64,000 bases of DNA from Alphaproteobacteria bacterium (lineage in GTDB: Bacteria; Pseudomonadota; Alphaproteobacteria; Micropepsales; Micropepsaceae), in contig CANJIS010000003.1 of the NCBI GenBank assembly GCA_947474565.1, positions 124,001 through 188,000 of the forward strand. Direction: 5' to 3'. The notes beneath the pieces are model-generated. The model worked only from the letters and a program-made list of their open reading frames with translations. It made no database searches and was not told the DNA's origin. The first letter of the stretch is position 1. Every line of letters begins with the position of its first letter. The translations under genes and the position numbers were made by a program. Of this stretch, positions 50,901 to 56,694 are shown piece after piece.

Positions 50901-51373
50901 GCGCCAACACCGAAGACCAATGGTCGCCCACGCTCAATCTGGGCACTTCGGTGCTGATTCCGGAAAGCTATGTCGCCGACCTCAATCTGCGCATGGCGCT
51001 GTATCGCCGCCTGTCGGATTTGCAGACCCGTACCGACATCGACGCCTTCGCTGCCGAATTGATCGACCGCTTCGGCCCACTGCCGGAGGAAGTCAAACAC
51101 CTGTTCGAGATCGTGGCGATCAAGCAGCTCGCCCTGGCTGCGGGCGTGGAGAAGATTGATGCCGGCCCCAAGGGCGGTACCATTACCTTCCGCAACAATG
51201 CTTTCGCAAATCCTTTGGCGCTGATCCAGTTCATCAGCAAACATTCCGGCACCATCAAGGTCCGGCCCGATCAGAAGGTGGTGGTCAGCCGCGACTGGGC
51301 CACGCCGGACGAACGCCTGGCCGGCGCCAAGGCGCTGCTGGGGCAATTGGTCAAGCTGGCAAAGGCCGCCTGA
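47900..51373 (+). CDS. mfd: Transcription-repair coupling factor
   Basis: A GTG start at 47900 inside the end of sdhE gives 1157 residues. The order is the UvrB-homology module (residues 10-300), the RNA-polymerase-interacting CarD-like domain (LITHIEHGVGRYLGLKAIEA, about 495), and a RecG-like translocase with Walker A LVCGDVGFGKTEVALRAAF, the DEEQ box in VVVDEEQHFGV, TATPIPRTLQ and QIRGRIGRSKARAYAYL. The TRCF C-terminal domain closes it. It displaces RNA polymerase stalled at DNA lesions and recruits UvrA. Confidence 0.97.
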   Translation: MERLDYIAKHEARFTVSGAPAGYDAYLAVEAARRRSGPVLFVAEGENEAEAALAAMAFFAPQLPLLSFPAWDCLPYDRVSPKPDIESTRLATLAALAKGVEACVIVTSVNALLQRVPPRDAIAKASVQAKTGEEVDRDALIAFLASNGYVRSDTVRDPGDFALRGGIVDLWPPGTDEPLRLDFFGETLEAIRRFDAATQLSRDAVDGISLLPASEAPLGQDAISRFRTGYVAAFGPAGDDPLYESVSAGRKAVGMEHWLPLFYGHLDTLFDYLPRCLVMLGHQVEETKKARLEVISDCYETREQFRHQDPNSKAIKAAPYKPLKPETLYLTDAEWQSRLSKNLVRTLSPFQAPESTTSVDAGGRQGRDFAPERTSGNQNVFQLAADHLKALQSGGRRAVMASWTDGSAERMGGVLFDHGLPAIRKVADWPEALRLHENAVGMACLGIEHGFEAPGFALMSEQDVLGDRMVRAKARQRRAQNFLSEASSLAPGDLITHIEHGVGRYLGLKAIEALGAPHDCLEIQYDGGKLFLPVENIELLTRYGSDEGAQLDRLGGGAWQKRKAEMKARVREIAAELIKIAAARELKHLPPVDPPAGLYDEFCARFPYQETEDQEKAITDAISDLAKGRPMDRLVCGDVGFGKTEVALRAAFVAAMAGEQVAVVVPTTLLARQHYRNFAERFNGFPLKVRQLSRFVDAKEARETKEALADGSVDVVVGTHALLAESISFKRLGLVVVDEEQHFGVVHKERLKSLKSDVHVLTLTATPIPRTLQLALSGVRDLSLITTPPVDRLAVRTFVTPFDPLVVREALLREHYRGGQSFFVAPRIADLREAEAFLKETVPEVKTAVAHGQMTPSVLEDVMTAFYERKIDVLISTNIVESGLDIPTANTMIVQRADMFGLSQLYQIRGRIGRSKARAYAYLTTPPDKKLTDTATRRLEVLQSLDQLGAGFSIASHDMDIRGAGNLLGEEQSGHVREVGIELYQDMLEEAVSSLREGGDGANTEDQWSPTLNLGTSVLIPESYVADLNLRMALYRRLSDLQTRTDIDAFAAELIDRFGPLPEEVKHLFEIVAIKQLALAAGVEKIDAGPKGGTITFRNNAFANPLALIQFISKHSGTIKVRPDQKVVVSRDWATPDERLAGAKALLGQLVKLAKAA

Positions 51374-51385
51374 CACGCTCGCTTT

Positions 51386-51517
51386 TGTCATTCCCGCGTA
51401 AGCGGGAATCCAGGGCCGCAGACTCGTCTGCCAGACCTGCGTCTGTTTCATCTGGATGCCCGCTCGGAGTTTACACTCCGGCCGCGCTTTGCGCGGACCG
51501 GGGTGGCGGGCATGACA
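51386..51517. repeat. REP-like palindromic repeat element
   Basis: The element starts TGTCATTCCCGC and ends GCGGGCATGACA, a near-perfect terminal inverted repeat. Inside are a perfect hairpin (ATTCCCGC, GTAA, GCGGGAAT; 51390-51409) followed by CCAG, and a second hairpin, CCGGCCGCGC with GCGCGG-A-CCGG. A related hairpin occurs at 54995-55018. It lies 12 bases after mfd and may also act as its transcript 3' end. No tract of T follows. Confidence 0.75.
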
Positions 51518-54659: not shown

Positions 54660-54914
54660 ATGCCCGCGAAAGAAAATGTTCCCGCCAATCTTCCTCATAA
54701 AATGCCGGCGGATTTTCGCAAAGCAATCGAGTCCGATGCGATGGTGAAAACTGTCTGGGCGGACATTACGCCGTTGGCGCGCAACGAGTGGATTTGCTGG
54801 GTCACATCGGCCAAGAAAGATGAGACCAGAGCCCGCCGGATAGACGTCGGCTTGGACAAAATGCGCAAAGGCATGCGGCGGCCCTGTTGCTGGCCGGGCT
54901 GTCCCCATCGCTGA
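54660..54914 (+). CDS. YdeI/OmpD-associated (OmdA)-like small protein
   Basis: The ATG at 54660 gives 84 residues: PADFRKAIESDAMVKTVWAD, then TPLARNEWICWVTSAKKDET RARRI, typical of the C-terminal part of the YdeI/OmdA bacteriocin-protection family. An upstream ATG at 54564 adds 32 unrelated residues. The end, RRPCCWPGCPHR, is unusually Cys-rich. The family function is uncertain. Typical members have 80-190 residues, so this may be a short or truncated member. Confidence 0.65.
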   Translation: MPAKENVPANLPHKMPADFRKAIESDAMVKTVWADITPLARNEWICWVTSAKKDETRARRIDVGLDKMRKGMRRPCCWPGCPHR

Positions 54915-54922
54915 GCGGTTTT

Positions 54923-54950
54923 GGCTGGTGACCCCAGGAAGACTCGAACT
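54923..54950 (-). repeat. Duplicated 3' end of tRNA-Arg
   Basis: These 28 bases are identical to 55035-55062, the last part of the tRNA-Arg gene (part of the T arm, acceptor strand and encoded CCA). The copies are 112 bases apart in the same orientation and enclose a REP-like hairpin. The rest of the tRNA is absent here. It is a possible attachment-site remnant or a local duplication. Confidence 0.85.
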
Positions 54951-54994
54951 GGCCAGCTTTGCTTGGCGAGCGTGCGAGCCTTAGCAAAGCGGCC

Positions 54995-55018
54995 ATCCCC
55001 GCGAAGGCGGGGATCCAG
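54995..55018. repeat. Short REP-like hairpin repeat
   Basis: ATCCCCGC-GAAG-GCGGGGAT is a perfect hairpin followed by CCAG. It is the same design as ATTCCCGC-GTAA-GCGGGAAT-CCAG at 51390-51413. It lies between the duplicated tRNA end and the complete tRNA gene. Confidence 0.7.
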
Positions 55019-55037
55019 AACAAGGCGCGGTATCGGC

Positions 55038-55114
55038 TGGTGACCCCAGGAAGACTCGAACTTCCGGCCTACGGTTTAGGAAACCGCCGCTCTATCCTGC
55101 TGAGCTATGGGGTC
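55038..55114 (-). tRNA. tRNA-Arg (anticodon CCT)
   Basis: On the minus strand the 77-base gene begins GACCCCA, has D arm AGCTCAGCAGGATAGAGC, an anticodon arm with loop TTCCTAA (anticodon CCT), and T arm around GTTCGAGTC. Acceptor strand TGGGGTC and discriminator A follow, with CCA encoded. It reads AGG codons. A copy of its 3' end lies at 54923-54950. Confidence 0.95.
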
Positions 55115-55131
55115 GCCGCCCGAGAAATGCC

Positions 55132-56694
55132 TTATTTTTTCAGCCAAAGCCAGCGGCTCGGGTGTAAATCCCGGGCGTTCGCCGTCCAGCCCTGGACTTT
55201 GGCGGCAACCAGATCGGTCTGCACCGGATAACGCAGCGGCACCCAGGGATAATCCTTCAACGCAAGGGCCTCGGCCGCGGCCAGGGCGCGGCCACGCCTG
55301 CTTGCGTCTGGCTCTTTTTCCGCCGCATCCAGCACGGCATCGAAGCGGGGATTGCGATAACCTGCGTAGTTGTTGCCGGCATCGCCACGCAACAGCCCAA
55401 GAAAATCCGACGCATCGTTGTAATCGGCAAACCAGTTGGCTGATCCCAGCTGATATTGGTGCTGGCGAAGATTGCGCAGATGAATGGGAAAATCCGCGGT
55501 CTGGATGCTGAGATCGATATAGATCACCTTCAGCATCGCCTGCAGCACCGCCGCCAATCTGCGATTGTCGGAATTGCCTGTGGTTTCATAACTCAGCTTC
55601 AGGCGCTGGAACGGGCCATAGCCTGCGTCCTGCATCAGCAATTGTGCTGCCGCCACGCGGGCGTTGAACGGCATGGCTTTGAAATCCATCGCTGCGCCGG
55701 CCGGATAATTGGCGGTGCCGGGCGGCACAAAGCTGTAGGCAGGCGGCTCGCCGCGTTTCAGCACCTTGTCGGTGATGGCTTCGCGGTTATAGGCCAGGTT
55801 GATGGCGCGGCGCACCCGCGCATCCTTCAGCGCCGGATCGGCCAGATTGATGGCGATATAGTCCACCCCAAGCGATGGCGTCACCTTGAGTGCGCCCGGC
55901 ATGTTGGTTTTCAGCCAGGCGATCTGACTGGCGGGCGCCGGGCTTTGCAGATCCAATTCACCGGCGCGAAACCGCCGCAGCGCCGCATCGGCGTCATCGG
56001 TGGGAAAATAGGTGACGGTGCCGATCGCCACCTTGGCCGCATCATAGAAGCGGGGATTCTTCGCCAGCGTAACGTGGTCGTTCGGCTGCCATTCCTTCAG
56101 CACATACGGCCCGTCGCCGACATGATTGCCCGGCCGTGCCCAGGCCGCGCCTTTGGTTTCCACCACATGCTTTGGTAACGGCAGGGCGCTGGGATGGGTG
56201 AGAAGTTCGGGCAGATACGGCGCCGGATGTTCCAGCGTCAGGATCAGCGTATCGGGCTTGGGCACATTCACGCCAAGCTGCTGATAGGGCACCTTGCCGG
56301 CGCCATAGGCTTTGGCGTTCTTGATGATCCAGAGATTATAGGCGTAGCGCGACGCGGTTTTGCCATCCAGCAAGCGATCGAAGGCGTAATCGAAATCATC
56401 CGCGGTCACCAGTTTGCCGTCCGACCAGAGCGCGCGGCGCAGACGAAAGGTCCAGGTCAAGCCGTCGGGTGACACCGTCCAGCTTTCCGCAATGCCCGGA
56501 ATGGCGCGGCCCCCGGCATCCAGGGTGGTCAGCCCAACCATCAGGTCGTGCTGAATACTCTCTTCCGCCTGGGCGCCGGCGAAATGTGGATCAAGCGAAT
56601 CCGGCTCCGCGCCATTGCCCCGGCGCAACACTTGTTGTGCGTTGGCCGTCCCGGTGAGGACCAGAAGCGCGAGCGTGATGGAAAGTAATTTCAT
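55132..56694 (-). CDS. Peptide ABC transporter substrate-binding protein (OppA family)
   Basis: The 520-residue periplasmic protein has a signal peptide (ending LTGTANAQQ) and SBP_bac_5 features RRGNGAEPDSLDPHFA, GIAESWTVSPDGLTWTFRLR, NHVGDGPYVLKEWQPNDHVT and DARVRRAINLAYNREAI. It binds oligopeptides for an Opp/Dpp importer, probably the transporter encoded at 59281-62944. The next gene upstream, at 56697, is a paralogue two bases away, so both are co-transcribed. Confidence 0.92.
   Translation of the reverse strand: MKLLSITLALLVLTGTANAQQVLRRGNGAEPDSLDPHFAGAQAEESIQHDLMVGLTTLDAGGRAIPGIAESWTVSPDGLTWTFRLRRALWSDGKLVTADDFDYAFDRLLDGKTASRYAYNLWIIKNAKAYGAGKVPYQQLGVNVPKPDTLILTLEHPAPYLPELLTHPSALPLPKHVVETKGAAWARPGNHVGDGPYVLKEWQPNDHVTLAKNPRFYDAAKVAIGTVTYFPTDDADAALRRFRAGELDLQSPAPASQIAWLKTNMPGALKVTPSLGVDYIAINLADPALKDARVRRAINLAYNREAITDKVLKRGEPPAYSFVPPGTANYPAGAAMDFKAMPFNARVAAAQLLMQDAGYGPFQRLKLSYETTGNSDNRRLAAVLQAMLKVIYIDLSIQTADFPIHLRNLRQHQYQLGSANWFADYNDASDFLGLLRGDAGNNYAGYRNPRFDAVLDAAEKEPDASRRGRALAAAEALALKDYPWVPLRYPVQTDLVAAKVQGWTANARDLHPSRWLWLKK

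Follow-up and report, generated by a model that had tools for sequence, protein, structure and literature searches.

The window, that is, the whole analysed stretch of 64,000 nucleotides (contig C3, positions 124001-188000), belongs to genome G000, which comprises 2.18 Mb in 39 contigs and is 99.84% complete. The only tRNA gene called by ARAGORN within the window is a complete tRNA-Arg with anticodon CCT, located at 55038-55114 on the minus strand (Rfam tRNA model: 68.3 bits at 55041-55114). A repeat search revealed two direct copies of 36 nt, at 54915-54950 and 55027-55062, which are spaced by 112 nt and equal at 34 of 36 positions (94%). The displaced copy includes an exact core of 28 nt (54923-54950) and repeats 25 nt of the tRNA 3'-end exactly, from the base before G53 through CCA (54926-54950, minus strand); the base before G53 is common to the copy and to the adjoining hairpin described below. 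The initial annotation had reported a 28-base exact direct copy of the tRNA 3'-end including CCA at a distance of 112 bases, which our data confirm. The longest exact repeat in 54701-55400 is 28 nt long, whereas 500 dinucleotide shuffles gave a mean of 9.3 and a maximum of 14, and a chance origin is thereby ruled out.

The description of the copy as a tRNA 3'-end was too narrow, as the similarity also runs 11 nt beyond CCA. The trailer past the copied CCA (54915-54925, minus strand) and the sequence directly past the CCA of the complete gene (55027-55037, minus strand) are equal at 9 out of 11 positions. At a fixed place such a match has a chance of 1.3e-4, and 13 out of 19980 11-mers in the surrounding 10 kb reach it. 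Since the similarity continues past CCA, the copied DNA was not the tRNA alone, and the sequence argues that the copy probably arose at the DNA level and not from the mature tRNA end only. A gene for an OmdA/YdeI-like protein (54660-54914; PF13376, E 4.8e-18) is convergent with the tRNA gene, and its stop codon ends at 54914, adjoining the copied trailer. An assembly artefact, also considered in the initial annotation, is unlikely as the sole cause of the copy because the same layout occurs at other tRNAs in other genomes.

Less than 90 bp separate the two copies. The initial annotation had this insert consist mainly of one hairpin, but two hairpins are present, which we refer to as hairpin1 and the REP hairpin and together as the module. 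According to the predicted folds, hairpin1 (54950-54995, plus strand) has a 4-bp outer stem, a 2/1 internal loop, an 8-bp stem and a TTGG..CTTA tip. It adjoins the copied tRNA end at the T-loop base G53. With our covariance model R2, the stretch 54950-55019 scores 89.5 bits, a value that is not independent since the window sequence is itself a member of R2. The 33-nt core of hairpin1 has no second match in G000 at up to 3 mismatches. The second element (54996-55018, plus strand), found by a REP pattern search, is composed of the hairpin at 54996-55013 and the tail TCCAG, and a linker (55019-55026) leads to the repeated trailer. As a short palindrome present in many copies, the 54996-55013 hairpin belongs to the REP family of this genome: the pattern has 36 matches in the 2.18 Mb at up to 3 mismatches and none in a reversed control, and REP pairs in inverted arrangement occur among these loci. 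Hairpin1 and the gene-end copies are not part of the REPs described in the portion of PMC3733652 considered here. A second REP locus of the window (51357-51414) lies behind an Mfd-like gene (PF03461). Two further REPs of G000 (L017 and L027; C8:45563 and 76150) seem by eye to lack the usual TGTCAT head and to be adjoined by another hairpin, which at L027 appears to include the stop codon of the gene.

Thirty tRNA-Arg(CCT) loci were compared, 28 of them from the same genus and 27 of these with downstream sequence; L061, without downstream sequence, and L063, from another family and cut at a contig end, were left out of the count. The window is the only one of the 27 same-genus loci with a 3'-end copy. 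The initial annotation had held that its proposal would be refuted if all relatives had the duplication and none a sign of insertion; this case did not occur, as none of the other 26 loci carries the copy. The downstream neighbours of the tRNA vary widely among same-genus loci. In G006, for example, an acyl-CoA dehydrogenase gene, found further on in the window, begins about 100 bp past the tRNA. Owing to these differences, neither a clean empty site nor an intermediate allele was present among the fetched relative loci, and none of them shares the downstream flank of the window.

A DNA search of 61 genomes led to the same layout at tRNA-Arg(TCT) in genome G016. Covariance models were then built, R1 from three seeds and R2 from 11 members. 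At E values up to 0.5, R1 had matches in 40 of 60 genomes, but most of the weaker ones that were looked at were other hairpin repeats, after which R2 was used at E values up to 1e-5. In 69 genomes of the genus, R2 gave 20 matches in 14 genomes. Among the 11 members, double-sided changes are seen at 15 of 19 base pairs, and 97.6% of the cells are paired, a result reached by none of 500 shuffles, although fitting the alignment to the structure biases towards it; the number of further pair types was reached by 162 of the 500. Thirteen of the 20 matches (11 of 18 measured together and the two of G084) have a tRNA or tmRNA gene no more than 200 bp away. Without the three seeds these were 10 out of 17 (binomial chance 2e-16, given that about 1.0% of the genome lies so near a tRNA), and 6 out of 11 when counted as loci (5e-10); both values assume independence and a tRNA density as in G000, and the choice of seeds leans towards tRNAs. 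As a control, 30 of the 36 REP loci of G000 were inspected, and that of the window alone lies within 600 bp of a tRNA.

A narrow pattern with GCCA before the T-loop resulted in 9 matches in 37 genomes, of which two, in G000 and G016, have the layout of the window. Four others (L074, L075, L077 and L080) are by eye DNA without a tRNA end, and those in G015 and two in G040 look, from the match alone, like ordinary tRNAs with a GCCAG/CTGGC T-stem. A class-wide model search covered 385 genomes with at most 13 candidates scored per genome, so that absence there means little. Among the best-ranked articles of the open-licence PMC literature, we recognised no paper describing the module. A family of longer repeats, by eye apparently separate and MITE-like, was noticed at gene ends of congeners (L121, L122, L126-L130; G065, G015, G080, G071). 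Most of these repeats start with GCGCGG..CTTT and include a stem resembling hairpin1; the end of several lies near CACAAAATC..CGCGC.

Copies of gene ends at hairpin1 or a few bases from it were found for tRNA-Arg(CCT), tRNA-Arg(TCT), tRNA-Gln, tRNA-fMet, where the 5'-end is repeated upstream, and queF. At tRNA-Arg(TCT) of G016 the copy comprises 24 exact nucleotides from G53 at a spacing of 100 nt, followed by hairpin1 and REP, in which bases have changed relative to the window while pairing is kept. The segment from tRNA-Pro to tRNA-Arg(TCT) appears to be inverted between G016 (L065) and G030 (L200), one end being the module-bearing tRNA-Arg. The tRNA-Gln of G084 likewise has a 24-nt exact copy from G53, and here the next 94 nt repeat the first spacer with 83 matches; this is a real tandem repeat. 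In G061 the tRNA-Gln is followed by an inverted module pair and then by a contig end at hairpin1 plus GTTCG, the first 5 nt of the T-loop start; inverted pairs occur in G084 as well. A 17-nt exact copy in G090 is preceded by other hairpins. A scan of the tRNA-Gln loci of 55 genomes, allowing up to 2 mismatches in 18, detected copies in G084 and G090 only, with L208 repeating L153, L179 having one base downstream, G061 cut by its contig end and one locus partly unreadable.

Mirror-image cases are provided by tRNA-fMet. Upstream of the complete gene in G079 come first its 5' half, which reaches to the anticodon loop, and then the module; a 22-nt palindrome is situated inside the D-loop of this displaced half (L118). 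In G008 the order is module, spacer, 5' fragment, module, spacer and gene, the fragment comprising 14 nt of the gene or 18 including the preceding bases. At the tmRNA genes of G030 and G008 (C220) repeated ends flank the module without abutting it (21 of 23 and 20 of 22 equal); the G008 module there is an R1 match outside the 20 matches of R2. Outside the genus, a module with an 11-nt 5' copy was found at tRNA-Arg(TCT) of G099. Within the genus, a module of G080 (C119) stands behind an apparent tRNA-Gln 3' fragment with no tRNA in the 2.1 kb fetched.

Not every module is accompanied by a copy. An automatic direct-repeat scan at hairpin1, applied to 17 of the 20 modules, was positive for four (G000, G016, G086 and G079) and negative for 13. 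Copies, some of them weak, were recognised by eye or alignment at scan-negative modules of G061 and G090 (tRNA-Gln), G090 and G008 (queF), G030 (tmRNA) and G008 (fMet), and the scan-negative module of G080 has the orphan fragment. No copy was found in G075, G000 (C12), G006, G009, at fMet of G088 or at tRNA-Gln of G016. Outside the genus, modules without a copy are present at tRNA-Gln of G403 and at the end of a sigma-70-like gene of G434, presumably rpoD as named by eye, and a weak match in G213 looks like plain REPs.

These layouts could be the result of insertion. The module might be a mobile non-coding MITE-like palindromic element whose insertion duplicates a long target site of variable length, and only where the remainder of the gene is included in the duplication would the insertion survive, leaving an intact gene plus a displaced end. 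We regard this explanation, the chief alternative to the duplication discussed below, as possible but tentative. The duplications would measure 35-36 bp in the window, 24 bp in G016 and about 44 bp in G079 (by eye, broken by the palindrome), and in these three cases no module stands on the far side of the copy. It also accommodates the adjoining or near position of hairpin1 at both tRNA-Arg genes, tRNA-Gln, fMet and queF, and the second end of a protein gene, queF, in G086. Duplications of 3 to 26 bp beside dyad symmetry are described for YPAL/RU-2 elements in the available part of PMC2229807, which also places RPE in tmRNA and M1 RNA genes. By that description, YPAL/RU-2 resemble the module in being non-coding and palindromic, with variable duplications and a preference for dyad symmetry; at the module, by contrast, it is a gene end that has been duplicated, and the gene remains intact.

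Insertion fits less well elsewhere. The tandem arrays of G084 and of tRNA-Pro in G087 and G086 would call for either several insertions or duplications of about 80-120 bp, two modules are present at fMet of G008, and modules without a visible copy occur at fMet of G088 and at tRNA-Gln of G016 and G403. A mover is also missing among the Y1 transposases (RAYT, PF01797), the one transposase family searched: 18 of the 69 genus genomes have it, but only 2 of the 14 module carriers do, and there is no match in G000, which leaves RAYT unsupported as a present-day mover. Retro-type (target-primed) insertion would fit one fixed and one variable end; nothing else spoke for it and it was dropped. An integron attC origin was rejected as well, for most displaced ends start by eye with GTT or GCT but no attC-like pairing partner was seen.

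The queF gene (PF14489) provides a further view of the gene ends. Beyond hairpin1, its last codons recur in diverged form in G086, G090 and G008, in G086 as 41 ungapped nucleotides of which 30 are equal. None of 300 shuffles matched as well in G086 and G090, compared with 51 out of 300 in G008. The in-gene end is low in GC3 in G086 (5 of 14 codons vs 109 of 138, p 0.0013) and G090 (6 of 14 vs 108 of 136, p 0.0054), whereas G008 shows no contrast (8 of 14 vs 99 of 144, p 0.38). Read in the frame of the gene, the displaced G086 copy has a GC3 of 9 out of 13, its in-gene counterpart 4 out of 13. The last 14 codons are the GC3-poorest 14-codon window of queF in G086 (L204) and G090 (L207). Because the three loci are related they are not independent, and this signal in two of three related genomes points weakly to a gene end that may have been brought in.

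The initial annotation had suggested that the copy may be the scar of a nearly fully deleted integrative element. In this case an integrase would have recombined at the T-loop, the att site of the element would have supplied the new 3'-end, and the element would later have shrunk to its ends. According to the available part of PMC4383910, islands in tRNA genes consist of a regenerated gene and a displaced fragment, 3' fragments downstream and 5' fragments upstream, with the crossover at the T-loop or the anticodon loop. The intact gene and the displaced fragment, in the right order and orientation and with the junction at the T-loop, are found in the window, and the low GC3 of the in-gene queF end in G086 and G090, against 9 of 13 in the displaced G086 copy, agrees with a replaced gene end. 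The Islander filter of the same source, however, requires an integrase and at least 2 kb. No integrase lies between tRNA gene and fragment in the window, the insert of which leaves no room for one, and the G008 queF locus lacks the GC3 contrast. Moreover, one would hardly expect the integrase of a single island to produce this module at five unrelated genes. We therefore find the scar of a lost integrative element unsupported and unlikely.

Copies of tRNA ends also occur without the module. Downstream of tRNA-Pro(CGG), 3' copies of 13-19 exact nucleotides were found at 123-125 nt in G087, G086, G008 and G090, and a weaker one of 10 nt in G016; R2 has no match there at E values up to 1e-5. The survey comprised 41 rows, two of which are the same G000 gene; 24 had 210 nt downstream and 4 were flagged, G090 being taken from another locus. 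The spacer is repeated in G087 (58 of 63) and G086 (57 of 64) but not in G090 (local score 13, shuffle maximum 16), and in G008 not directly after the first copy, although a strong local match is present (106 vs 19). Among the 43 tRNA genes of G000, two have a 3' copy of 13 nt or longer no more than 400 bp away, Arg(CCT) (25 nt) and Ala(CGC) (13 nt), and spacer repetition at the latter is hardly present (18 vs 17 in shuffles). This tRNA-Ala copy (C2, L227) lies 162 nt downstream and is followed by sequence that is similar by eye.

The same measurement in Escherichia coli K-12 tyrV yielded 19-nt exact copies of the tRNA-Tyr 3'-end at 178, 356 and 534; past the first of these, 189 of 199 bases recur. 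We take this to be the rtT array; rtT-type repeats are trailer segments at whose end the 3'-end of the preceding tRNA recurs. To our knowledge, the origin of the tRNA-end repeats at tyrT and tyrV is not settled. Both tyrV and the window have 3'-end copies behind the gene that begin in the T-loop region, and the downstream direct copy in the window runs from this region through CCA. The tyrV copies have the same length from the 3'-end as the longest tRNA-Pro copies. They differ from the window in number and setting: tyrV contains three copies with near-perfect spacers and no REP module, whereas the window, like G016, contains one copy (24-28 nt in the two) and the two-hairpin module. Tandem repetition of the spacer amounts to 9 of 11 nt in the window and is absent from G016, but is clear in G084, G087, G086 and E. 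coli.

The tyrV locus also raises the question whether selection keeps the repeat because the trailer RNA acts as terminator, processing signal or small RNA. Such a function has reportedly been suggested for tyrT and tyrV, and RttR is annotated as a small RNA at tyrV. In several genomes, covarying hairpins immediately follow tRNA genes, which would suit this explanation, but the layout is patchy, with one of 27 same-genus tRNA-Arg(CCT) loci, and the fold of the 128-nt trailer is unexceptional for its composition. At -50.1 kcal/mol it has a z score of only -1.5, with 17 of 200 shuffles at least as stable, so that fold stability alone is unremarkable. Selection for a trailer function thus appears to be an unlikely explanation.

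The explanation that we favour, at about even odds, takes the repeat in the window for an rtT-type repeat of the tRNA end, produced by a duplication that had one of its breakpoints at a palindrome, with the recurrent module of hairpin1 and REP as its spacer. The proposal in the initial annotation of a REP-associated duplication is supported: gene-end copies accompany the module at several genes that are unrelated to one another. In the presumed order of events, the module would first arrive at the gene end. A local duplication with breakpoints in the tRNA T-loop and at the outer end of hairpin1 would then produce the order tRNA, module and second tRNA end, and the remainder of the second repeat would be short or lost, 11 nt being left in the window. 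As the upstream tRNA stays complete, such an event would be tolerated. Template switching or slippage at palindromes may be the molecular cause.

Several observations argue for duplication: the layout at G016, the tandem repeat of G084, the inverted module pair of G061 with its contig end in a T-loop start, the module-free tRNA-Pro copies, tyrV, the mirror case at fMet of G008, and the covarying stems of the module. G084, tRNA-fMet of G008, tyrV of E. coli and the tRNA-Pro loci of G086 and G087 would follow from it directly, and the window would follow if most of its second spacer had disappeared. Against it stands the weak repetition behind the copy, which in the window is limited to 9 matches in 11 nt with a local score not above shuffles and is absent in G016; the second spacer would therefore have to have been lost. 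Spacer repetition is also missing at tRNA-Pro of G090 and nearly so at tRNA-Ala of G000, and the fetched loci offered neither an empty site nor an intermediate allele. In addition, the queF copy with the odd codon use is the in-gene one in two of three genomes, which simple duplication would not predict. Insertion accounts more directly for the window, G016, G079 and queF, but neither insertion nor duplication predicts a queF end that was brought in.

A further reading, which we think rather unlikely, is that a gene-free element of about 75-145 bp, made of two hairpins or an inverted module pair, lands within the terminal parts of essential genes, every landing yielding an intact gene plus a displaced end. 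This would amount to island-style regeneration on the scale of a MITE and without an encoded integrase. The landing sites would be the T-loop or anticodon loop of tRNAs, a tRNA 5' half and the tail of queF, where codon use hints that the element perhaps brings a new gene end along. If the module is mobile, it would be a gene-free element that spares essential genes, as each landing leaves a whole copy.

Repeats of tRNA ends are known from E. coli. Here they are found at several tRNA genes of one lineage, with the breakpoint repeatedly at the same kind of hairpin. Because single-copy, tandem and decayed forms are present in different species, their origin can be tested by strain comparison. For programs that search for genomic islands, a tRNA gene with a displaced fragment need not imply an integrase. 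In this lineage, the duplication of tRNA ends looks like a recurring process and not like the scar of a lost virus-like island.
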